DNA from: an uncultured Bacteroidales bacterium
GTDB lineage: Bacteria > Bacteroidota > Bacteroidia > Bacteroidales > UBA932
NCBI GenBank assembly: GCA_900317845.1
Contig: ONII01000005.1
Coordinates: forward strand, 124,001 to 188,000
Reading direction: 5' to 3'
DNA: 64,000 bases
The notes beneath the pieces are model-generated. The model saw only the letters and a program-made list of their open reading frames with translations. It searched no databases and had not been told where the DNA came from. A program made the translations under genes and the position numbers. Shown piece after piece: positions 7,355 to 32,654 of the stretch; the first letter of the stretch is position 1; every line of letters starts with the position of its first letter.

Positions 7355-7798
7355 TTAGATGTTTTCGGGGAATTGACCTTCCACCTTGATACCCATGGAA
7401 CGGGCAGTACCGGCGACCATGCTCATGGCGCTGCGCAGCGTGAAAGCATTGAGGTCCGGCATCTTGGACTGGGCAATCTCCTTTACCTGATCCCAGGTAA
7501 CGGTTGCCACTTTCTTACGGTTGGGTTCACCGGAAGCCTTGCTAATCTTGGCAGCTTCCTTGAGCGATACGGCCACCGGGGGCTGTTTGACCTCAAACGT
7601 GAAGGACTTGTCGGAGAACACGGTGATCACCACAGGGAGAACCTTACCGGCCTGGTCCTGGGTGCGGGCGTTGAACTGCTTGCAGAAGTCCATGATGTTG
7701 AGGCCCTTGGAACCGAGTGCCGGTCCTACCGGGGGCGCAGGATTCGCTGCTCCGCCTTTGATCTGGAGCTTAATGAATCCAGTTACTTCTTTTGCCAT
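7355..7798 (-). CDS. rplK: 50S ribosomal protein L11
   Basis: This 147-residue protein of the GTPase-associated centre binds the 1058-1108 region of 23S rRNA. The proline-rich N-terminal segment ([20 protein letters not shown]) and the C-terminal rRNA-binding domain are both present. It follows nusG with a 10 nt gap in the usual order nusG-rplK-rplA. Confidence 0.98.
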
Positions 7799-7808
7799 AG
7801 TTTAATAC

Positions 7809-8369
7809 TTACTCTTTAGTTACTTGTGTAAAGCTGAGTTCCAGAAGTGTCTTTCTTCCAAAGATCACAACTACCACCTTCAATTTGCTTCTGTCCTGAA
7901 GGATTTCCTCTACGGTACCGTCGAAACCGCTGAAAGGACCGTCCGTAATGCGGACGCTCTCCCCTACGGTAAAGTTGACCTCAGTTTCTGCTGCGCTCAC
8001 TGCGTTCTCGTCCTGGACGCCAAGGATGCGCTGGGCTTCCTCGTCGCGGATGGGAACGGGAATACGGTCTTGGCCGTTGCCGGTTTTCTCCGTAAGGAAG
8101 CCGGACATGCCGGGGATGCCGTTACGAATCACATACTCAAGGTCCGGATTCAGTTCTGCATGAATGAGCACATAGCCGGGGAAGAGCAGGCGCTCCACCT
8201 CTTTGCGTTTGCCATTCTTGGTGACGATCTCCTTCTTGACAGGTACAAGAACCTGATCCACAATTGCTTGCAGATCCGGGTGTCTTTCAATTTCCTTGAC
8301 TAGGTATTCGGCGGCTTTCTTTTCCTTGGTTCCCGCGGTACGCAGAACGTACCATTTTTTGTCAGCCAT
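7809..8369 (-). CDS. nusG: Transcription termination/antitermination factor NusG
   Basis: This 186-residue elongation factor binds the beta' clamp and couples transcription to translation or Rho. The NGN domain starts KKWYVLRTAGTKEKKAAEYL. The C-terminal KOW domain (about residues 130-186) contains GESVRITDGPFSGFDGTVEE. It lies directly after secE (15 nt gap), the standard secE-nusG pairing. Confidence 0.97.
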   Translation of the reverse strand: MADKKWYVLRTAGTKEKKAAEYLVKEIERHPDLQAIVDQVLVPVKKEIVTKNGKRKEVERLLFPGYVLIHAELNPDLEYVIRNGIPGMSGFLTEKTGNGQDRIPVPIRDEEAQRILGVQDENAVSAAETEVNFTVGESVRITDGPFSGFDGTVEEILQDRSKLKVVVVIFGRKTLLELSFTQVTKE

Positions 8370-22872: not shown

Positions 22873-22904
22873 CTTGGAAGTTTCCATAATTGTGATTACA
22901 TTTG
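22873..22904 (+). promoter_or_regulatory. Toxin-antitoxin promoter
   Basis: CTTG (22873-22876), 20 nt, TACATTTG (22897-22904). The -7 box is exact and the -33 box matches at 3 of 4 bases. It lies 17 nt before the antitoxin ATG. Confidence 0.65.
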
Positions 22905-22921
22905 CAAAAACGATAGCAGAT

Positions 22922-23197
22922 ATGGAAACGATTACAAGAACGCAAACCGTTATCAGGTTTAGGGAGGATATCCTGAACCGGGCCCGGTATAAGGCCAAGC
23001 AACAAAGTATGTCTTTGAATGCGTATCTGGAGCATGTGGTGGAGGAGGCCGTGAAGCCGCAGATCCCCAAACTCCCCAAAGAGTTCAAGGTATCAGACTT
23101 TGTAAAGTCACTTAGCGGTGTTATCACCGCTCCTTCTCAGGAAGAGTTGGAGGCCGATCCTAAATTGGCTTATATATTAGGGAAAGGAGGAGAGTAG
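22922..23197 (+). CDS. Antitoxin with ribbon-helix-helix fold (type II TA)
   Basis: This 91-residue protein starts at ATG 22922, chosen because the promoter box occupies the sequence before it. The N-terminal strand-helix-helix (TQTVIRFREDILNRARYKA, then SMSLNAYLEHVVEEAV) is typical of Arc/MetJ-type DNA-binding antitoxins. The C-terminal tail, which should wrap the toxin, contains SDFVKSLSGVI. The toxin begins 1 nt after its stop. Such pairs usually repress their own promoter through the antitoxin. Confidence 0.8.
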   Translation: METITRTQTVIRFREDILNRARYKAKQQSMSLNAYLEHVVEEAVKPQIPKLPKEFKVSDFVKSLSGVITAPSQEELEADPKLAYILGKGGE

Positions 23198-23198
23198 G

Positions 23199-23639
23199 AT
23201 GAAAGTGAAAGTTGCCTTAGACACCAATGTCCTGATGGACCTCTTGTTGGAGGGCCGTCCAGAAAAGGAAAGCGCAGAGCAAATTGTTGCTGCAGCAGAA
23301 GCCGGCTTAATTGAAGCGCAAGTCAGCACGCAGAGCATTATTGATGCAGCCTTTACATGCCGGAAACAAGGCGTAAACCGGGAAGCCTTCCGGGAAGCCA
23401 TCAATAAATTGCGCACTGTTATAAAAATCAGCACGATAGACTGGCTGGACCTCTCATGGGCACTTGCACATGATTCGGGAGACTTTGAGGATGACATGCA
23501 GTATGCAAGCGCCTACAGTAGCGTTTGCGACTTTTTTATCACGCGGGATAAAAACCTCTTTACCTACAATGAGGACCCCAACACTCCCATGACAGTAATT
23601 TCTTCGAAGGACTTTGTCGCAAAGATGACGGAAGACTAG
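23199..23639 (+). CDS. PIN-domain ribonuclease toxin (VapC-like)
   Basis: This 146-residue PIN nuclease is expected to cleave RNA when freed from its antitoxin. Acidic metal-binding residues are visible in LDTNVLMDLLL (first Asp), in GDFEDDMQYASA and in ITRDKNLF. A GGAGG-like purine stretch before the ATG is one of the few Shine-Dalgarno-like sites here. Its stop overlaps the stop of the convergent polyprenyl synthetase by 4 nt. Confidence 0.85.
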   Translation: MKVKVALDTNVLMDLLLEGRPEKESAEQIVAAAEAGLIEAQVSTQSIIDAAFTCRKQGVNREAFREAINKLRTVIKISTIDWLDLSWALAHDSGDFEDDMQYASAYSSVCDFFITRDKNLFTYNEDPNTPMTVISSKDFVAKMTED

Positions 23640-24610
23640 AAGCTGCGGCCCACCAGGGCGTGGGCAAAGCTTTTCAGGGCCTCATGGGCATAAGGAGGAA
23701 TGCCGGCATCCGTGCCCTTGAATACAGCGCGGGTGCTCAGGTCCCCAATGGCTTTCTTGGCGGCATCGGCCACGCCTACACTATCATAGATGGCCTTTAC
23801 GCGGGCAATTTTGGCGGCCTTTTCCTCCGGGGTAACCGCAGGGGCATTCAAGGCCTCTTCCAGGCCCTCCGCGCCCAGTTCCAGGGCTTTTAAGGTAAGC
23901 CAGGACTTCTTGCAGTTGAGGATGTCCCCGCCAATTGGCTTGCCAAACACTTTTTCGTTTCCGTAGGCATCCAGGTAATCGTCCGCCACCTGGAACGCCA
24001 GGCCCAGGTAGTAGCCATAGTCGTACAGGCACTCCTGACTGGGCAGGCCGGTCCCGCCAATAAGGGCGCCCAGCTGGGACGCACAGGCAATGAGGACGCC
24101 GGTTTTAAGGCCAATCATCTGCATGTACTCCTGCATGGTAACGTCGCTGCGCTTCTCAAAGTCCATGTCCATCTGCTGGCCGTCGCACACCTGGGAGGCC
24201 GTGCGGGAGAAGAGCGCCAGCGCCTCCGGCAAAACGGCCGCCGGAGCCTTGGCAATGCGCTTGTAGGCATCGATGCACATCACGTCGCCACTGAGGATGG
24301 CGGTATCCTCGTTCCATTTTTTCCAAACGGTCTCGTGGCCGCGGCGAAGAGGGCTGCGGTCCATGATATCGTCGTGGATGAGGGTGAAGGTATGGAACAC
24401 CTCCAGGCCGGCCGCAGATTCCAGAATCTGCGGCGTAAGGGTATCGGCAAAAAAGCTGTAGGTAAGCAGGCACAGGCGGGGCCGGATGCGCTTGCCGCCA
24501 ATGGCAATCATGTAGCGGAGCGGGTCATACAGCCCGGCAGGTTCTGCTTGGAACTCAATTTTGCCAAAAAGGTCCTTCAGGGCCTGGTCGATGGTGCTTT
24601 CTGGAATCAT
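23636..24610 (-). CDS. Polyprenyl (geranyl/farnesyl-type) diphosphate synthase
   Basis: This 324-residue trans-prenyltransferase condenses isopentenyl diphosphate with an allylic diphosphate. The first aspartate-rich motif (LIHDDIMDRSPLRRG) and the second (QVADDYLDAYG) are complete, as is GGKRIRP near the N-terminus. The ATG at 24610 was chosen over the upstream TTG because the promoter box lies at 24626-24633. Product chain length cannot be fixed from sequence. It likely supplies isoprenoids for menaquinone (menA at 46.3 kb) or undecaprenyl carriers. Confidence 0.92.
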   Translation of the reverse strand: MIPESTIDQALKDLFGKIEFQAEPAGLYDPLRYMIAIGGKRIRPRLCLLTYSFFADTLTPQILESAAGLEVFHTFTLIHDDIMDRSPLRRGHETVWKKWNEDTAILSGDVMCIDAYKRIAKAPAAVLPEALALFSRTASQVCDGQQMDMDFEKRSDVTMQEYMQMIGLKTGVLIACASQLGALIGGTGLPSQECLYDYGYYLGLAFQVADDYLDAYGNEKVFGKPIGGDILNCKKSWLTLKALELGAEGLEEALNAPAVTPEEKAAKIARVKAIYDSVGVADAAKKAIGDLSTRAVFKGTDAGIPPYAHEALKSFAHALVGRSF

Positions 24611-24625
24611 GGGTGGTATTTTTTG

Positions 24626-24633
24626 CAAATATA
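24626..24633 (-). promoter_or_regulatory. -7 box of the polyprenyl synthetase gene
   Basis: Minus-strand TATATTTG lies 15 nt before the ATG at 24610 and inside direct repeat copy 1. No clear TTTG lies at the -33 position, which is occupied by the terminator hairpin. Confidence 0.55.
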
Positions 24634-24635
24634 AC

Positions 24636-24657
24636 AAAAAAAACGGGAATCGCCCGT
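24636..24657 (-). terminator. Intrinsic terminator after the radical SAM gene
   Basis: On the minus strand ACGGG-CGATT-CCCGT forms a short stem followed by eight T. It lies at the downstream end of repeat copy 1 and should end the 24.8-30.1 kb transcript. Confidence 0.65.
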
Positions 24658-24799
24658 GACTGGTAAATTGTTAATACACAGGTGGTTACATACTAATCCT
24701 CGTTCAAAATTTGAACGAGGATTATCTAATAACAAACTGATTCACAGCTGATTAGCTGCCACCCTTACAACAGAAAAGGGGACTAACGGGCTGCGGCAT

Positions 24800-26302
24800 T
24801 CAGGCCATCTTCTTACGGAATACAGGCACTTCTTCTACAGGCAGGGCATCCAGGCATTCCTGGATGCTCTTGCCGTCAAGCGGGTCCAATCCCTGTTCCA
24901 TTTGCCGGCATAGTTCCATGCTTATCTGGGCTGTCAGGCAAGCGTCGCCCTTTATCTCTCTGAGCACGAACGTGCCGTCGGCGTGCTTTTCCAGCGGCTC
25001 ACCGGCATAACAGGGCACGCGGCAATACTGACAATAGTCGTGCTGGCCGCAGACGGGAAACGCCTGCTTCTGATCGGCCTGCAGCATCTGCAGGCGCTGT
25101 GGGCTCAGGATGGCCTCCCTGAGCGACAAATGATGGACATCGCCAAAGGTGAGGGGGATATTGCCGCACGCACTGACTATTCCACTGGGTGAGACGATGA
25201 TCCTGCCATTGGCAGAGCAGGGGAACCCACGCCTCCTGCCAAACGTGTAGCCTTGGGCTTTTCCATTGGCCGGTACGTGATTTTTCACAAGTGGGTCCGT
25301 CAAGATGATACGCAGCGCTTCAGGACGTGTCTGCAAATGTTCAATCAAAGATATATCGCCGTCGGCACCGGGTATCAGCAGGCACGAGACCTCATTCTCT
25401 GCACTGAGTTGGCGGGCTATTTCGCGCACTCCATAATAGGTCCGGGTGTTCAGACGGAACACGGGTGTTTTGATATTCAGGGGTACAGGCCATGCTGCCA
25501 GCTCCCTCAGCGCCTTCATCGACTGCTCCCACGAGCCGCGCCTGCGTGTTATCTGGTCATGGACCTCTGCATCGGTGCTGTAGATGGAAACGCTTACCTG
25601 CCTGAGGCCCATCCGGGCGAGGCGTCTTATCTTTTCGCTATTGTTGAGCGCCTGGGCGTTGGTATACAGGTTCACGGCCAGATTGCGCTCGTGCATATAC
25701 GCAAGGATGTCCCAGCAGTGGGGATAACTGAACGGATCGCCGCCCGTGACGGTCACCTCGGGTATTCCTAATGCTACGGCTTCATCGATGAGACGCTTGT
25801 AATCGGCCGGTTGGAGCATATTGGGACGCAGGCGGTGCTCCTCGTGCAGGTCGCTGCGGGCGGCGCCTTCGTTATAACAGTGCAGACAACGCTCGCAACA
25901 GGCATAGGTAAGTTCAAAAGTAAGAGATACCTGAAGTTCCTCAGGTAAGGAGTCCTTATAATCGTCCAAAGGCCTATAGCCCTCTGCCGCTATGCAGGGC
26001 GGATTATCCTTTCGGTACTGCCGCCACTCCTCGTCACTCCATACATGGTCGTGAACGAGTCCTATCGGCATCAGCGACGCTTGACAGAACGCGGTGACCT
26101 GTTCTTCCGTGGCACCTGTCACAGAAGCGATATGCCCGGTGTTAATGGGACATTCTCTCTTACCGGCCAGCACTTCATTGACCAGCAGGGCCGATACCCC
26201 CTCAAATGTATAGCAAGTGTCGTGCGCCGTATTGTACATTACAGCTCTTTGTGCCTGGCTGTTAAAGGCACCACAGGTGTATAGGGGGCGGATAAAGGTC
26301 AT
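24800..26302 (-). CDS. Radical SAM/SPASM peptide maturase (candidate RiPP enzyme)
   Basis: This 500-residue protein has an N-terminal region (about residues 1-100, FEGVSALLVNEVLAGK) resembling a PqqD-like peptide-binding domain. The radical SAM core has the cluster motif CX3CX2C (C135, C139, C142) and the SAM-binding TGGDP (residues 186-190). A C-terminal SPASM domain holds further cysteines (C362, C379, C418-x5-C424-x2-C427-x3-C431, C455). This layout is that of enzymes that modify ribosomal peptides by forming C-S, C-C or C-O bonds or epimers. It is last in the operon, overlapping the transporter by ATGA. The substrate is inferred to be the 46-residue peptide at 30009-30149. Confidence 0.9.
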   Translation of the reverse strand: MTFIRPLYTCGAFNSQAQRAVMYNTAHDTCYTFEGVSALLVNEVLAGKRECPINTGHIASVTGATEEQVTAFCQASLMPIGLVHDHVWSDEEWRQYRKDNPPCIAAEGYRPLDDYKDSLPEELQVSLTFELTYACCERCLHCYNEGAARSDLHEEHRLRPNMLQPADYKRLIDEAVALGIPEVTVTGGDPFSYPHCWDILAYMHERNLAVNLYTNAQALNNSEKIRRLARMGLRQVSVSIYSTDAEVHDQITRRRGSWEQSMKALRELAAWPVPLNIKTPVFRLNTRTYYGVREIARQLSAENEVSCLLIPGADGDISLIEHLQTRPEALRIILTDPLVKNHVPANGKAQGYTFGRRRGFPCSANGRIIVSPSGIVSACGNIPLTFGDVHHLSLREAILSPQRLQMLQADQKQAFPVCGQHDYCQYCRVPCYAGEPLEKHADGTFVLREIKGDACLTAQISMELCRQMEQGLDPLDGKSIQECLDALPVEEVPVFRKKMA

Positions 26303-28062
26303 GCCACGGTTCGGCTATAATTCAGATAGATGCAATTAATACCATTCATGTACTTGTGATTGATATTCTTGCACACGCGCGACAAGATGGCCCGTCGCAG
26401 ATTGTTCTCATCGATATCCGCTAACTCCTCATCCGTATATTTATAAATTGGATTTCTCAGAGGGCCCTTGCTCTTAACAACCACCGTGAGTTCTTTTTCC
26501 TTGTCGATGATACGCACATCGAAGGTTTCCTTCTCCTTGGGGGAAAGCGGTTCATGCGTCTCCACAATCTCATAGAGCAGTTCCTCCAGCGCAATGTCCA
26601 CGGCAAAACCGTCAGGAAGCTCGCATGCTTCTACAAAGGGATGAACCTGCGTCAGGAAAGCCTCGACGCCCTCTTTGGTATAAGGTACGGAGAACGTGAC
26701 GGCCGGGTTCGACGGCACCGTATTCTCCAGTGTGGGCCAGGCATAAAGCGGATTCTTGCGGTGTACTACATAGGCCATGGCAACCATCACCAGCAGCAGG
26801 AACCACGCCGTGGCGGGCAGGATGTACCAGATAAGTTCGGGGCTGTAGAGCGCCAAAAGGGCAATAATGCCGATGCTTCCCAAATTGGTTACAATCTCTA
26901 TCCACCGGCAGAGCTTCTGATGTCCCTGCACGAAGTAAAGCACGCTCAATGTCTCGGAAATGGCATTGGGCAGGAACGCGATGCTCATCAGGCGGAACGG
27001 CGTATAGCACTGTGCAATCAGGCTGTCGTCGGCTCCATAGATTCTTGCAATCAGGCCGGGGAAGAGGAATATCAGCAGGCTCACCGCCAACATTACTGGT
27101 ATCAGTATTCGAAAGATGCGTCGCGTGAGTAGTCGGAAACTGTTGTAGTCCTCTTCGCCAAGCAGAATGCCGCCGATATTCGTGATGGCCGTATTGGAGC
27201 CGGACAATGCCAGCATACAGATACCATTGATTTGAAAATAGATGGTAAAGAAATACATGGCGTCGGCACCGAGTTTCCCGATAACCAGCGAGTTCATGGT
27301 GAAGGCCATGGCCGGAGCTAACAAGGCAGATATCAGCATGGGGAGGCCGATGGAAAAGCATTCACGGTACATCTTGATGCTGCAAATCTTCTCCGGGCGC
27401 TTGAGACGGAAAATTTTACTGTTCTTGCGCATATAGCCCACCAGGGAGGTGAAGGCGAGCAGGTTGCTCAGGGCTGATGCAAGCGATGCACCGGCCATGC
27501 CCATGTCGAACACACCGCAGAGCAGCAGGTCGAACCCCACATTGAGTACCTGTGAGATGATGATGCGTCGGGTGATGAGGTTTGGACTGCCGTTGGTAAT
27601 GACGTATGAGATAGGTACGCCACAGACGGACGCTATGAAGATAGCGAACATGTCGGCATGGATGTAGGGCTTCAGCATGGGCAGCAACCGCTCGTCGGTT
27701 GTTATGAGGCCTGCCAACACGTCGAGGAAAGGCAATACAAGAGCTATGACCAGTAGGGTGGAGAAGAGGACATAGTACAGGTGATTGTTGAACACCCGGT
27801 TCACCTTGTCGTAGTTCTGGGCACCGATGCCTCGCGCGCTCAGGAAACTGGCGCCGGCACTCATCATGCCGATGATGATGAACATGCAACTCGCAATGGG
27901 TTGCCAGATACGGACAACTGACAGTGCATCGGGCGACACCAGATGAGACACTACGATGGAGTCGGTGAAACCACCCAACTGTCTCATCAGCGCTGACATG
28001 ACGGTCGCCAGAAAGAACGACCCGAACATGTTTTTCAACACATAGTCATTATGCTGCATCAT
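26299..28062 (-). CDS. MATE transporter fused to a HATPase-like domain
   Basis: This 587-residue protein has about twelve membrane spans over residues 10-435 with the two-fold MATE fold (GGFTDSIVVSHLVSPDALS near the start). A soluble C-terminal domain of about 130 residues follows. That domain contains VDIALEELLYEIVETHE, resembling the N-box of anti-sigma/histidine-kinase ATPase folds. The glycine-rich ATP lid is not obvious, so ATP binding is uncertain. The start overlaps the preceding gene's stop by 14 nt. Position between a putative peptidase and a maturase suggests export of the finished peptide. MATE proteins usually export small cationic compounds by Na+ or H+ exchange. Confidence 0.85.
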   Translation of the reverse strand: MMQHNDYVLKNMFGSFFLATVMSALMRQLGGFTDSIVVSHLVSPDALSVVRIWQPIASCMFIIIGMMSAGASFLSARGIGAQNYDKVNRVFNNHLYYVLFSTLLVIALVLPFLDVLAGLITTDERLLPMLKPYIHADMFAIFIASVCGVPISYVITNGSPNLITRRIIISQVLNVGFDLLLCGVFDMGMAGASLASALSNLLAFTSLVGYMRKNSKIFRLKRPEKICSIKMYRECFSIGLPMLISALLAPAMAFTMNSLVIGKLGADAMYFFTIYFQINGICMLALSGSNTAITNIGGILLGEEDYNSFRLLTRRIFRILIPVMLAVSLLIFLFPGLIARIYGADDSLIAQCYTPFRLMSIAFLPNAISETLSVLYFVQGHQKLCRWIEIVTNLGSIGIIALLALYSPELIWYILPATAWFLLLVMVAMAYVVHRKNPLYAWPTLENTVPSNPAVTFSVPYTKEGVEAFLTQVHPFVEACELPDGFAVDIALEELLYEIVETHEPLSPKEKETFDVRIIDKEKELTVVVKSKGPLRNPIYKYTDEELADIDENNLRRAILSRVCKNINHKYMNGINCIYLNYSRTVA

Positions 28063-29431
28063 ATTTCAATCTATAAACGGTCACGCCCATCATCGTGAAC
28101 TTATCCTTCATATAAGTGTAGGCATCCATGTCTGAAAGCCCTAATCCCTTTTCGCTGGCATGATAGAAGTGCAGTCTGCCATCTATCCATTTGGCTATCA
28201 GCAGGTGCTTGACCTCTACGCCTCTTGCCCAGCTATGCTGGTTGCACACCACCGCCAGGATGTCGCCGTCGTGAATCACGCCCAACGCTGAATCCTGTGG
28301 CATGTCCAGCAGCTCACGGGGGATATAGGTAAAACGCACGCCCTGCTGCTGGCGAAGGGCGATGGCCTTGTAGTTTTCTTCGTCATCCATCTGAGGGCGG
28401 AACAGATGCTTGTTTTGGGTCATGTAGCTCGGCTGCAGATCCATCAGCCCCGTAAAGGGAAAGGCCGGCTCATCGGGACTAATTCGCTCTACGAATCCCT
28501 CTTGGATGGCCGACTGCATAATCCAGGTGAAGTAATGGTTGCGGGTGGCAAACGAGACCACACCGTCCTGATAGTGCATGCGCCGGTAGTAGTCCTTCAG
28601 GTCTGCCAGCGTGGTTCGCCCGTCTCTGTAACATAACGCCAGTGTCAGCACATCCTCTATCACGGTGGTACAGTCCACATGACTCAGGCTCACAATCAAG
28701 TGCTCTTCCTCCAGGGGTTGTGTCAGGCTGGTAGGGATGCTGCCCTCCGTCAGTTGGCAGAAGAAGTATTCGGTCAGCGGCATCGACGGATCCACGTTTT
28801 TCATCGCACGCTGCAGGATCTGCTCGTTTTGCGCGTCAAACTGCTGCTCGTTGCGGCGCTGCCAACGGAGCTGCCTTTTCTGAAAGAACCATTTTGCCAA
28901 GCTGCCCAGCGACGTCCTTACGCAGAATACCAGCCACAGCGAGCGCAGCGCAGCCAGCTGTTCGCGCCAGTAGTAGGGATTGGCCTTCACCTTTTCATAG
29001 TCGCTGATGTCAATGCCCCAGGCATCATAACCCAGCCACCCCGCAATACGCAGTGAACGGGCCATGTGGAAGCTGCTGGTCAGGATGTAGAATCGGGTTT
29101 GATGGAAATACTGCTCCATGTTCCATAACGAGCGAAAGGTGTTATAGCCACAGGAATCCAGCACAAAGCGCTCTTCGGCGATATGGTATTCCTCTACCAG
29201 CGTGCGGTAAAGGACGGTAGTGTCGGCACGACAACCGGAGATGTAGAACAACCAGTCGGGATGGGCATTGGCAAGAACACTCACCAGCCTCACGCGCAGC
29301 TGCAGGATAGGCGACAGTGAGTTGTCGGGACGCAGTTTGGCACCTAACACCAGACATACTTTCATGCCTTCAGGTACCTGTCCGCCACTGAGCCCTTGTA
29401 AACTGTCGTTATGTAGCTTAACACACTGCAT
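28049..29431 (-). CDS. DUF218 (YdcF/SanA-like) - DUF1460 fusion protein
   Basis: The ATG at 29431 (overlapping the previous stop by 14 nt) gives 460 residues; a longer frame from 29500 lies within the preceding gene and was rejected. Residues about 24-165 match the DUF218 fold (VCLVLGAKL, DSCGYNTFRSLWNMEQYF, ILTSSFHMARSLRIAG). Residues about 200-455 look like DUF1460, an NlpC/P60-like amidase/cysteine peptidase family, with the candidate nucleophile C254 (HVDCTTVIEDVL) and histidine H299 (ATRNHYFTW). I do not know this fusion. In a peptide operon the DUF1460 part is a candidate leader peptidase or cross-link hydrolase; a cell-wall role is the alternative. Confidence 0.8.
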   Translation of the reverse strand: MQCVKLHNDSLQGLSGGQVPEGMKVCLVLGAKLRPDNSLSPILQLRVRLVSVLANAHPDWLFYISGCRADTTVLYRTLVEEYHIAEERFVLDSCGYNTFRSLWNMEQYFHQTRFYILTSSFHMARSLRIAGWLGYDAWGIDISDYEKVKANPYYWREQLAALRSLWLVFCVRTSLGSLAKWFFQKRQLRWQRRNEQQFDAQNEQILQRAMKNVDPSMPLTEYFFCQLTEGSIPTSLTQPLEEEHLIVSLSHVDCTTVIEDVLTLALCYRDGRTTLADLKDYYRRMHYQDGVVSFATRNHYFTWIMQSAIQEGFVERISPDEPAFPFTGLMDLQPSYMTQNKHLFRPQMDDEENYKAIALRQQQGVRFTYIPRELLDMPQDSALGVIHDGDILAVVCNQHSWARGVEVKHLLIAKWIDGRLHFYHASEKGLGLSDMDAYTYMKDKFTMMGVTVYRLKYDAA

Positions 29432-29999
29432 GGTCCGATTGGCGCATTTGCCTGCTGATGTCCAAAAGAAGAACAATCTGCTCTCTGACATTGGTGGCAA
29501 ACGCGTCGCTGTTTTCCAGGATGTAGGTCTTCAGTTCGGCGATGTCCTTACACTGTAAATGGTGTATCACCATGAAATGCAGTCCATCCCCTTCGCGGTT
29601 ATGACCGGCGCCGTCGAAAAAAGTGATTTTGCCATCTATCACATCCTGATTGAAGCGCTCCCACAGATGGAATATCCGGTTAAGTGCGTTGGACTTAACG
29701 TTGTCGTAATGGCAATAGCATACCAGCTCATCCGGATGTTCTTCCAGATATTGGGTAAGAACAGCCACAACCATGCGCCCCACCTCTTTGTCGGGCGCAC
29801 CGCCACGCTTCCCTTCGGCAAGATTGAGCATGAAGTAAAGCACGCGATGACCACCCATCTGTGCTACCTCAATAAAATGAAGTACATAAAGACGACCCGC
29901 GGCATTGTAAAACGCCACCGCTGAATCGCCTCTTTTCCTTAACACCAGTTTTGACAGGGTGTTTATTTTCGCTATTCCTTCTTCAGAAACAGTATTCAA
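29418..29999 (-). CDS. Unknown protein in peptide cassette (DUF6169-like?)
   Basis: This 193-residue soluble protein has no certain family. It resembles, from memory, the Bacteroidota DUF6169 group in the segment ELVCYCHYDNVKSNALNRIF followed by a Trp-Glu-Arg-Phe helix. There is no signal peptide or membrane span. The only in-frame start near the upstream gene is TTG at 29997-29999, preceded by a purine-rich AGAAGTAAAG; the next Met is about 48 codons in. It starts 9 nt after the precursor peptide stop and overlaps the DUF218-DUF1460 gene. It may be a chaperone or immunity factor for the peptide; this is a guess from position. Confidence 0.65.
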   Translation of the reverse strand: MNTVSEEGIAKINTLSKLVLRKRGDSAVAFYNAAGRLYVLHFIEVAQMGGHRVLYFMLNLAEGKRGGAPDKEVGRMVVAVLTQYLEEHPDELVCYCHYDNVKSNALNRIFHLWERFNQDVIDGKITFFDGAGHNREGDGLHFMVIHHLQCKDIAELKTYILENSDAFATNVREQIVLLLDISRQMRQSDHAVC

Positions 30000-30008
30000 T
30001 CTTTACTT

Positions 30009-30149
30009 CTAATTAGAAGTCGCGCAAATACTCCTATCCCTATCATCAAGGGTTTTAAATACATAATCGTCAAGGGTCAGCGCCTGAGCAGTAATGATAC
30101 TTTCAGGAGATTTCCTGATCTCAAACAGATTGTCATTGTTGTTAGTCAT
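30009..30149 (-). CDS. Candidate RiPP precursor peptide (46 aa)
   Basis: ATG at 30149, TAG at 30011-30009. The peptide begins MTNNNDNLFEIRKSPESIIT and continues AQALTLDDYVFKTLDDRDRS, ending ICATSN. There is no signal peptide or membrane span. The acidic/hydrophobic middle (LTLDDYVFKTLDD) looks like a leader recognition segment, and the short tail with a single Cys (C42), Thr and Ser could be the modified core. It is the first gene of an operon ending in a radical SAM/SPASM enzyme, 9 nt before the next start. The coding strand is AT-rich compared with the flanks. I cannot assign it to a known precursor family. Confidence 0.7.
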   Translation of the reverse strand: MTNNNDNLFEIRKSPESIITAQALTLDDYVFKTLDDRDRSICATSN

Positions 30150-30261
30150 AGTCTACAAATTTTTAGTTATAAAACAATTTCAAAAACTTGTGCTTTATTT
30201 TCCTTAACGGCAATTTTACGAATAATATTTTTACTTTCCAAATGTTTAACTCAAATCTTTG

Positions 30262-30269
30262 CAAATGTA
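30262..30269 (-). promoter_or_regulatory. -7 box of the peptide operon
   Basis: Minus-strand TACATTTG matches TAnnTTTG and lies in repeat copy 2, about 112 nt before the precursor ATG. The -33 position lacks a clear TTTG, so other factors may help. No other -7 match lies closer to the ATG. Confidence 0.5.
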
Positions 30270-30271
30270 AC

Positions 30272-30291
30272 AAAAAACGGGAATCGCCCGT
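30272..30291 (-). terminator. Intrinsic terminator after the amylase gene
   Basis: Minus-strand ACGGG-CGATT-CCCGT followed by six T, in repeat copy 2. It should end the sus-type operon transcript just before the peptide operon promoter. Confidence 0.65.
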
Positions 30292-30398
30292 GACTGGTAA
30301 ATTATTAATACACAGGTGGTTACATACTAATCCTCGTTCAAAATTTGAACGAGGATTATCTAATAACAAACTGATTCACAGCTAATTAGCTTCCACCC

Positions 30399-32654
30399 TT
30401 ACAGCTGAAACACCACGGAGGAGTTGGCGCCCAGTTTGAGCACGTTGCCATTGGCGGCGGCGGTGCCCAGGACAGCCACGGGGTGGGACAGGTCGTCGGA
30501 CACGGTGACCTGTTTCTCGGACGAGGCCACGTTGTGGACGACAAGGAGCTTCTCAGAGCCCGCGGTCATGTACCATGCAGCGATGGAAGTGCCGGACAGG
30601 TTGGCACTGGTCATGGTGCCGGTAGCCAGGGCCTCATAGGTGTTGCGCAGGCGGCTCCAGGTTTGGTACACCTGCAGGATGGAACCTTCCGTAGCAGACT
30701 GGGCTTCCACGGAAATATCGGCCTTGAGCATGCCTGTATCCACTTTATTCTCTACGCCCTTCTTGGCGCACTGCTTGCCTGCTTTGTCCCAGAGGATAGG
30801 GGTACGGACATATTCGTCGCCGCTGCCCTTGGTGCCATAGTAACCCAGTTCTTCACCCTGGTACACGAAGGGTTTGCCGCCACCGGAAAGGAGGATGGCG
30901 CCGGCCTGTTTCATGCGGTCCAGGTTCTTGCCCACATTGGAGGCAAAGCGGTCCTGGTCGTGGTTGGACAGGAAGAAGGAAGTGATGGCATCGGCACGTA
31001 CACCCGTGTGGTCGCTCACGTATTTGGCCGCCTGGGCAGCAAAACCGGTCGCATTCTGGTTATTGAGCATATCACGCACCTTGTAGCCATAGTCGAACTC
31101 GAAGCAGGAGGTAACGCCCTTGTAATAATTCTTTTCCGTGTCGTGACCGTCCCAAGCTTCGGCCACCATAAAGATGTCCTGCGTCTGGCCAAGGGACTTG
31201 CCGGCCGCCTTGTAGGTATCGTTACAGCGCTGGTACCACTTGTTCAGGAGGGTCTGGTTGGAAGTGTTGTTATAGGAACTGATACCGCCGCAGATGTGCT
31301 TTACGGCATCCAGACGCAGGCCGTCAATGCCCATATTGATCCATTTGTCGGCCGATGCCGCCAGGTCCTGGAAGCAGGCGTTGTTCTCCGCCACAGAGAC
31401 ATCGCCATAGTTCAGGTCCGGCATCCAGTCGCTGAAGCAGCCCATGTAGAACAGGGTTTCGGTGGTGACGTCCGTCAGTTCAATCTTATAGCGCCCATTG
31501 CCGGTGAACCACATGTCGGAGCCGTCACCCACCAGTTCTACAGGTGTGCCTTCAGTAATGGTGCCGCCGCTTTTGGCGCCAAACTTGGAGCCGGCGTCCC
31601 AGTTGTTGTACTTGCGAACCAGTATTCCCCACTTGCCGCTGATATCCATTACCAGGTAGTAGGTGCCGTCGCCCTTATCGACAAACTTCACCACTTTTCC
31701 TTCCCCGCCATCCTGCCAGGCCCAGAGGTTCCAGGTAGCGTTGCCATTAGTCACGGCCTCGGTGGTTTTGGTAACGGTGAGCTTGGGAGAGCCGCTGGTC
31801 ACCTGCTTCCATTCGCCGGAGTTATACGCAGTGCCCTTCAGCATGGGGAAATTCTTATAGTCTGCCGACGGGTTGGCGCTAAAGAAGTAATAGTCCCGAT
31901 ACTTGCTGGAAGGATCGGCCACGGCCTCTTTGAACCAGGGGTTGTTCTTGCCGCTGTGGTTGAGCACATAGTCCATGTAGATGGCGATGCCCTTGGCATG
32001 AGCGGCTTCCAGCAGTTCCTGGAAGTCCTGCTCCGCTTTGGCCGTTGTCTTCTCCCCTACCGCATACAGCGGATTCAGGGAATAGTAGTCGTTCACGTCG
32101 TAGGCGTGATAAGAGCTGGTGGGATGCGCCGGGCTCAGCCACAGGGCCGTGACCCCCAGGCCGTCCAGGTAGTCCAGCTTGCTTTGAATACCCTTGAAGT
32201 CACCAATGCCGTCGCCGTCGGAGTCTGCAAAGCTGTAGATGAGCAGCTGGTAGGCAGTGTTGGACCGTTTGGTACCGTCAAAGGAGGCCGGTGCAGGCAC
32301 CAGGGCCACCCAGTTGGAGCCCGACTGCGTCACACTCACCGGTGTCTTGAAGTTGCCGGAGGCAAAGTTCACGGTTCCCGTGCGGGCTTCTCCCTCGTTA
32401 GGCGCCACGGACACGCTCACTGAGCCATTTCCGCTGCCGGAGGTGGTGTTCAGCTTAATCCAGTCCGCGGACGCAGTGGCCGTCCAACTTCCGGAGGCTT
32501 TCACCTGCAGGAACTTAGTTGCCGTATCGGACTCCGTAAAGGACAGTGAAGTGGGCGTCACCGTAATCTCCGACGTGGGTTCAACGGGCGTTTCCTTGTT
32601 GCCGCAAGCCACCAGGGCAACGGCAGCGGCCAGTATCCAAAGGTATTTTTTCAT
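30399..32654 (-). CDS. GH13 alpha-amylase lipoprotein (SusG-like)
   Basis: This 751-residue surface lipoprotein should cut starch or related alpha-glucans. A signal peptide with lipobox (AAAVALVAC, Cys17) is followed by a BACON-type beta domain (about residues 30-112) and a GH13 barrel from about residue 135. Catalytic residues are visible in GLRLDAVKH (nucleophile Asp), MVAEAWDG (acid/base Glu) and FLSNHDQDRF (Asp). A beta-rich block of about 140 residues (including NATWNLWAWQDGGEG) interrupts the barrel, resembling a CBM41/CBM58-like starch-binding insertion. It is last in the sus-type operon, 62 nt after the SusE/F-like gene. Confidence 0.93.
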   Translation of the reverse strand: MKKYLWILAAAVALVACGNKETPVEPTSEITVTPTSLSFTESDTATKFLQVKASGSWTATASADWIKLNTTSGSGNGSVSVSVAPNEGEARTGTVNFASGNFKTPVSVTQSGSNWVALVPAPASFDGTKRSNTAYQLLIYSFADSDGDGIGDFKGIQSKLDYLDGLGVTALWLSPAHPTSSYHAYDVNDYYSLNPLYAVGEKTTAKAEQDFQELLEAAHAKGIAIYMDYVLNHSGKNNPWFKEAVADPSSKYRDYYFFSANPSADYKNFPMLKGTAYNSGEWKQVTSGSPKLTVTKTTEAVTNGNATWNLWAWQDGGEGKVVKFVDKGDGTYYLVMDISGKWGILVRKYNNWDAGSKFGAKSGGTITEGTPVELVGDGSDMWFTGNGRYKIELTDVTTETLFYMGCFSDWMPDLNYGDVSVAENNACFQDLAASADKWINMGIDGLRLDAVKHICGGISSYNNTSNQTLLNKWYQRCNDTYKAAGKSLGQTQDIFMVAEAWDGHDTEKNYYKGVTSCFEFDYGYKVRDMLNNQNATGFAAQAAKYVSDHTGVRADAITSFFLSNHDQDRFASNVGKNLDRMKQAGAILLSGGGKPFVYQGEELGYYGTKGSGDEYVRTPILWDKAGKQCAKKGVENKVDTGMLKADISVEAQSATEGSILQVYQTWSRLRNTYEALATGTMTSANLSGTSIAAWYMTAGSEKLLVVHNVASSEKQVTVSDDLSHPVAVLGTAAANGNVLKLGANSSVVFQL

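Follow-up and report, generated by a model that had tools for sequence, protein, structure and literature searches.

Related systems and overview of the cassette

Cys-containing peptides of the sactipeptide and ranthipeptide type are matured by radical S-adenosylmethionine (SAM)/SPASM enzymes such as SkfB, AlbA and CteB, in systems where ABC export is usual. Short products can take another route. In the accessible parts of its description, the tryglysin operon comprises a short precursor, a radical SAM/SPASM maturase, a recognition element (RRE) for ribosomally synthesised and post-translationally modified peptides (RiPPs) and a MATE transporter, and its mature product has 7 residues (PMC8092268). 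Methanobactin operons likewise hold MATE pumps, with MbnM as the exporter beside the biosynthesis genes MbnB and MbnC, according to the portions of PMC3621798 available to us. Here, we describe a five-gene cassette (24800-30149, minus strand throughout) in a 64,000-nucleotide stretch of contig ONII01000005.1, hereafter the window, from an uncultured Bacteroidales bacterium (GCA_900317845.1). The cassette, which occurs in Bacteroidales of the rumen and gut, is likely to be a radical SAM RiPP operon that would make, trim and export a modified peptide. Its genes are as follows:

30009..30149, minus strand: precursor peptide, 46 aa, with a conserved leader, a variable core and Cys across 14 distinct versions
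29418..29999, minus strand: 193-aa protein, distantly DUF6169-like (weak DUF6169 matches), TTG start
28049..29431, minus strand: DUF218-DUF1460 (AmiA-like) fusion, probable cytosolic peptidase/amidase (Pfam, triad alignment)
26299..28062, minus strand: MATE exporter whose C-terminal domain looks GHKL/HATPase_c_2-like below cut-off (Pfam, tail alignment)
24800..26302, minus strand: radical SAM/SPASM enzyme, probable peptide maturase, its N-terminal domain PqqD-like (Pfam, cysteine alignment, profile comparison)

A first-pass annotation of the window had proposed these five minus-strand genes in this order, and the open reading frame (ORF) coordinates confirmed them, with a 9 nt gap between the first two genes followed by overlaps of 14, 14 and 4 nt. 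The end coordinate that it gave, 30257, takes in DNA upstream of the precursor. The third ORF is open over 28049-29500; an ATG at 29431 (460 aa) is its likeliest start because homologues agree from about there, and this yields the 14-nt overlap. Pfam models over cut-off (given in brackets) were Radical_SAM at 76.4 bits (29.5), MatE at 94.6 (24.9) and, on the fusion protein, AmiA-like/DUF1460 at 79.3 (27) and DUF218 at 38.6 (27.6), while SPASM at 16.9 (21.5), HATPase_c_2 at 12.9 (27.4) and DUF6169 at 17.6 (27) remained under it in the window copy. Rfam gave no match at gathering scores over 23500-31500. The arrangement is not due to chance, since it is conserved in other genomes.

The cassette resembles the tryglysin (WGK) operon of streptococci in its short precursor, radical SAM/SPASM maturase, RRE and MATE transporter, as far as that operon is described in the text available. 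There, the RRE is a separate protein (WgkC), whereas in the cassette it would be fused to the enzyme. The cassette cores contain no WGK motif and the WgkB and WgkD models remained under cut-off, the window MATE protein scoring 34.7 bits against the WgkD model (NF052396; cut-off 510). The genes for the DUF218-DUF1460 and 193-aa proteins are not in the tryglysin operon as described in the same text. The part of the literature at hand also presents methanobactin as a short RiPP with a MATE exporter within its operon. Unlike the cassette enzyme, MbnB and MbnC are not known to be radical SAM enzymes. The first-pass annotation knew of no described class that combines peptidase-like and MATE-type export parts; a view that MATE export lacks precedent among RiPPs would be wrong, as both tryglysin (WgkD) and methanobactin operons have a MATE protein in these descriptions. 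A literature search, mostly of open-access main texts, returned no description of this gene set that we recognised.

Precursor peptide

The window precursor divides at an approximate boundary into a leader, MTNNNDNLFEIRKSPESIITAQALTLDDYV, and a core region, FKTLDDRDRSICATSN. Fourteen distinct precursor peptides were collected, namely that of the window, 12 others and one in genome G894. They have in common a leader with a consensus of about MAKNDNPFxIRKSPxxIIxAQALxLDDYV, and this conserved leader rules out a chance ORF. The cores fall into at least five types: DRVSFCATTN-like (including the window), KRGEFGTDFHCRSGVLDGTSKK, KRGSWESGCVKSGVCPSSAKK, KLIPICA and KRGLDDCPVRVCASID. Cys is present in all 14 precursors. 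If the core types are treated as independent and 1-2% of residues are Cys, the chance of finding it in every type lies between about 7e-5 and 1.4e-3. The Cys residues are consistent with a thioether of the sactipeptide or ranthipeptide kind.

Substitutions are distributed unevenly along the peptide. Between the window and L046, a locus from a Bacteroidales metagenome-assembled genome (MAG), leader codons 1-30 carry 8 silent changes and 1 replacing change, and core codons 31-46 carry 4 silent and 8 replacing changes. Among the type-A precursors (n = 9, giving 36 non-independent pairs), the counts are 131 silent and 132 replacing over 23 leader codons, and 45 and 228 in the core. We read this pattern as a leader held for recognition with a core free to diversify, and the 46-aa ORF as a real precursor of the RiPP type.

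A precursor ORF was found in 10 of the 11 loci with a readable 193-aa gene start and upstream DNA (the window, L046, L048, L051, L052, L053, L054, G894, G879 and G881). Only G912 departs from this: its copy has decayed, and its 193-aa gene continues into a MATE scrap with stops. In the relatives without a precursor, either the contig ends before the site (the contig of L047, L049, L050 and L055) or the copy has decayed (G912, G968); the genomes of L047 and L055 carry precursors on other stretches. The first-pass proposal of a RiPP-type operon with a short precursor is thus supported by 14 versions with a conserved leader and a variable, Cys-containing core, and homologous operons lacking the short upstream ORF, which it had named as evidence to the contrary, did not turn up among the readable loci, the decayed G912 aside.

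The diversity of the cores also bears on the fate of the product. Several different cores occur under one leader type within single genomes (L051, L052), and diversifying cores are more in keeping with a peptide used between bacteria (a bacteriocin or a signal) than with a cofactor. It is very improbable that the short ORF gives rise to a redox cofactor of the PQQ or mycofactocin type, or to another peptide without an antagonistic role: models for PqqE and the mycofactocin maturase do appear among the matches of the enzyme, under cut-off, but cofactor precursors keep their core, whereas here the core varies while the leader stays and different core types share a genome.

Radical SAM enzyme

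The cysteines of the SAM-cluster motif CxxxCxxC (C135, C139, C142) are invariant in 41 aligned sequences, as are the auxiliary cysteines C362, C379, C418, C424, C427 and C431, and C455 is present in at least 90%. The SPASM model exceeds its cut-off in the relatives L051 (24.9 bits) and L057. The three best-scoring solved structures, PqqE, SkfB and CteB, all act on peptides; lower-scoring ones include enzymes that do not act on peptides, among them cytosylglucuronate decarboxylase and MoaA. The enzyme matches the maturases SkfB, AlbA and CteB in sequence, yet none of the NCBIfam maturase models listed reaches its cut-off, and the sactipeptide-type models scored 56.5 of the required 850 bits (AlbA), 46 of 300 (SkfB) and 53.7 of 625 (StsB). 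In a quick tree, 10 cassette enzymes form one branch with a support of 100 and a long stem. Matches of the enzyme core to viperin-type entries of a defence library (50.9 and 44.2 bits) were set aside as general radical SAM similarity.

The N-terminal domain was compared with a profile of PqqD derived from 23 sequences of Bacteroidales. It aligned along the domain's length with a probability of 84.5 and a score of 33.3; the controls reached at most 20.7 (60 column shuffles), 8.7 (reversed) and 17.8 (four other enzyme pieces). The cassette presents features expected of a radical SAM RiPP system: a precursor with a conserved leader and variable core beside the enzyme, SAM and auxiliary cysteines, and, by profile comparison, a PqqD-like domain.

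DUF218-DUF1460 fusion protein

Residues C254, H409 and H424 of the fusion protein are invariant in 8 aligned sequences and align to the structure 2p1g, which its profile matches with an E-value of 1.4e-21 (4h4j/4q5k/4q68: 1.1e-15). In the available portions of PMC10318531, DUF1460 amidases of the NlpC/P60 type have a Cys-His-His triad, which the three invariant residues fit. The fusion protein matched 35 other genomes of 198 in a sample of the order, and no alignment reached the DUF218 half. No signal peptide, membrane segment or export signal was seen by eye, and the protein is probably a peptidase or amidase of the cytosol.

This family membership could also be taken to mean that the fusion and the MATE protein protect the producer, one as an enzyme on the peptidoglycan side and the other as an efflux pump, with a housekeeping protease trimming the leader. 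In the literature as far as it was accessible, DUF1460 is described as an amidase family (PMC10318531), SanA and ElyC, both DUF218 proteins, are connected with the biogenesis of the envelope and of peptidoglycan, and MATE pumps chiefly export toxic compounds (PMC3621798). We nevertheless consider self-protection somewhat unlikely: the fusion shows no export signal, as judged by eye, its gene overlaps its neighbours inside the operon, and no other processing gene is present in the five-gene copies. A role of the fusion in trimming the peptide remains our preferred reading.

MATE exporter

At E-values up to 1, 9 of 10 MATE tail sequences matched HATPase_c_2 (best 9.8e-5); the window tail alone scored 16.8 bits against a cut-off of 27.4. 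Among 198 genomes of the order the tail matched only its own, and it found no solved relative at E 1. In an alignment read by eye, the N-box Asn that is a usual GHKL motif is apparently replaced. MATE remnants occur near other copies: L051 carries a stand-alone fragment of the C-terminal domain (7612-7896), a second, broken MATE copy adjoins the cassette of L047 (3961-5373), and at L222 1242-1700 (genome G912) a scar fuses the 193-aa gene into a MATE scrap.

Another reading takes the product for a signalling peptide that the producer group itself senses, and not for an antimicrobial, with the GHKL-like tail or the 193-aa protein as a regulatory part. A GHKL-like domain on the pump and the several cores under one leader type within one genome (L051, L052) would suit such a role. 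We regard it as unlikely all the same, since no regulator or receptor gene was recognised directly beside the cassette in ORF lists read by eye, with no profile search, and the tail apparently lacks the usual Asn.

193-aa protein

DUF6169 matched weakly in 4 of 8 members of the 193-aa family (best E 0.0041), and a comparison with solved structures was unconvincing (best E 0.3). In a quick tree, the window's copy stands alone on a long branch. The likely start is TTG in the window (29999), L051 and L052, and the same place is occupied by ACG in L046 (6301), L048 (6298), L053 (5537) and L054 (6306). Coding-type conservation from the ACG onward makes a non-standard start possible.

Distribution and gene order

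A scan of contigs from 84,980 species with an alignment of the radical SAM enzyme yielded 88 relatives, of which 80 were kept. They split sharply into 11 loci at 74-97% identity and 69 at 28-35%. The 11 cassette-type loci have the same partner genes as far as their contigs extend. They comprise ten from Prevotella or Prevotellaceae together with L046, and most come from RUG or rumen-type projects (we take RUG to denote a rumen genome). Within the window's family, the enzyme was matched in 7 of 199 genomes at E 1e-20, its own included; the other six matches are three full-length (33-36%) and three partial (26-27%). Across the order, 7 of 393 genomes matched at E 1e-45, with 30-36% identity besides its own. 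For the 193-aa protein, matches came from 3 of 398 genomes of the family: its own, G701 (79%) and, weakly, G175 (22%). Viral contigs gave a single 25% partial match.

All five genes occur in the same order at 4 of 12 loci: the window, L046, L048 and L054, the last being Prevotella sp. MA2016 (genome G873), which is not labelled a metagenome assembly. Recurrence of the five genes in order, which the first-pass annotation had put forward as a check, therefore holds at three other loci, but not at L051 and L052, which are rearranged, or at others that are cut or partial. Contig ends cut L047, L049, L050, L055 and L056, and L053 has the enzyme between two precursors, followed by the first part of the 193-aa gene. 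The cassette adjoins genes read by eye as trmD and/or trpS in L048, L050, L051, L054 and L055. Among 200 genomes around G873, 5 have a cassette-type enzyme (73-100%) and 4 one of the 32-37% type. In a comparable set of 200 genomes, the 193-aa protein has matches in 16, with at least 67% identity in 8 of them and 21-28% in the others. The 193-aa gene is present in all five genomes with a cassette-type enzyme, and the other three close matches are G894, whose contig ends just past the precursor and the 193-aa gene, and the decayed G912 and G968.

The more distant loci (L057-L125) form a sister family: the enzyme is 28-35% identical to that of the cassette and shares its cysteine set, and 56 of the 69 loci encode a short Cys peptide next to it. 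They differ from the cassette in an unrelated leader and a downstream precursor, and queries with the precursor, 193-aa, DUF218-DUF1460 and MATE proteins all went unmatched there at E 1e-3. Their peptide of about 34 aa lies directly downstream (e.g., downstream of 11503 in L057) and typically reads ...CPKxxESxCGIxYR, with a variant ACAYQSSCP in L107, L117, L119 and L123; five examples, one with an inexact query sequence, had no NCBIfam match. These short Cys peptides make peptide modification look like the ground state of the wider enzyme family.

Flanking repeats and history of the cassette

The cassette is flanked by two copies of a direct repeat:

24638..24776, no strand assigned: left copy, 139 bp, with a palindrome
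30272..30410, no strand assigned: right copy, 139 bp, 96% identical to the left copy

The palindromic intergenic element of the repeat (about TAATCCTCGTTC...GAACGAGGATTA) has at least 88 partial matches dispersed in its own genome, where 40 of the 65 candidates were scored; in many cases two matches are the opposite strands of a single site. An antitoxin-like/PIN-like pair, read by eye, adjoins the prenyl synthase at 22874-23639. The cassette was not found in the stretch read around the prenyl synthase in five genomes of the same genus (G732, G811, G860, G854 and G805). In G811 (L158) the amylase lies next to the prenyl synthase without the cassette, and a single related copy of the repeat (76% over 154 nt) sits between them. 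The two genes are also neighbours in G732 (L157), which is closer by its prenyl synthase (96%); a search for the repeat there returned only a 22 nt match to the amylase end. The empty sites of G811 and G732 suggest that the cassette was probably gained at this place, with the intergenic stretch duplicated. In G701 (L035) the same amylase borders the cassette on one side and the toxin-antitoxin/prenyl synthase block on the other; cassette and block are inverted relative to the window, and the same search did not find the 139-bp repeats there, apart from 28 nt.

Synonymous divergence (dS) between the window and L046 falls along the cassette, from 1.09 for the precursor to 0.80 (193-aa), 0.31 (DUF218-DUF1460), 0.16 (MATE) and 0.07 (radical SAM), and the two enzymes pair in a quick tree at a support of 100. 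This gradient and the quick trees indicate that the precursor-side and enzyme-side halves differ in history. We thus interpret the cassette as a mosaic, with differing histories of its halves to be expected if cores are exchanged.

Proposed pathway

In the pathway that we consider likely, the PqqD-like domain would bind the leader and the radical SAM enzyme would alter the core at Cys, in a modification of the thioether type. Trimming of the leader in the cytosol may then fall to the DUF1460 domain, and the MATE protein would export the resulting short peptide. Export by a MATE protein fits a short product, given the 7 residues of tryglysin and the MATE pumps of methanobactin operons. The 193-aa protein could be a cognate accessory, perhaps in precursor handling or immunity.

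Several observations weigh against this pathway. The PqqD-like N-terminus reported in the first-pass annotation is backed by the profile comparison but not by the model libraries: the N-terminal 100 residues of the window enzyme match 0 Pfam and 0 NCBIfam models, PF05402 giving no match. For the N-terminal domains of 26 members, PqqD is absent from the 25 of 34 Pfam families listed and from 20 NCBIfam families; the Pfam matches listed are scattered and weak, many of them to winged-helix families. Each of the 25 NCBIfam matches listed (of 47) to the enzyme is far below cut-off. The cassette has no dedicated immunity gene, and the structure model of the 193-aa protein is poor (pLDDT, a per-residue confidence score, 45). 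In L051 and L052 the five families are all present, arranged as a reshuffled tandem (precursor, 193-aa scrap, MATE, radical SAM, two precursors, 193-aa, DUF218-DUF1460, second MATE), and the L055 enzyme lies in two frames and looks frame-broken.

Implications

Judged from its sequence, the locus is of a known kind, a radical SAM RiPP operon, with an unusual processing and export set and no new principle. More tentatively, it may represent a distinct RiPP class, in which the fusion would be a cytosolic enzyme dedicated to leader cleavage or acyl transfer, the nucleotide-binding-like tail of the MATE protein would couple export to cell state, and interchangeable cores would recombine under one leader while moving between Prevotella and other rumen Bacteroidales. 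Prevotella sp. MA2016, which has the five genes in order, could serve for direct tests. The cores that occur naturally with a single leader give a hint of what the enzyme tolerates, and the cassette provides candidates, open to testing, for a new leader-processing enzyme and for a MATE fusion in RiPP export in rumen Bacteroidales.

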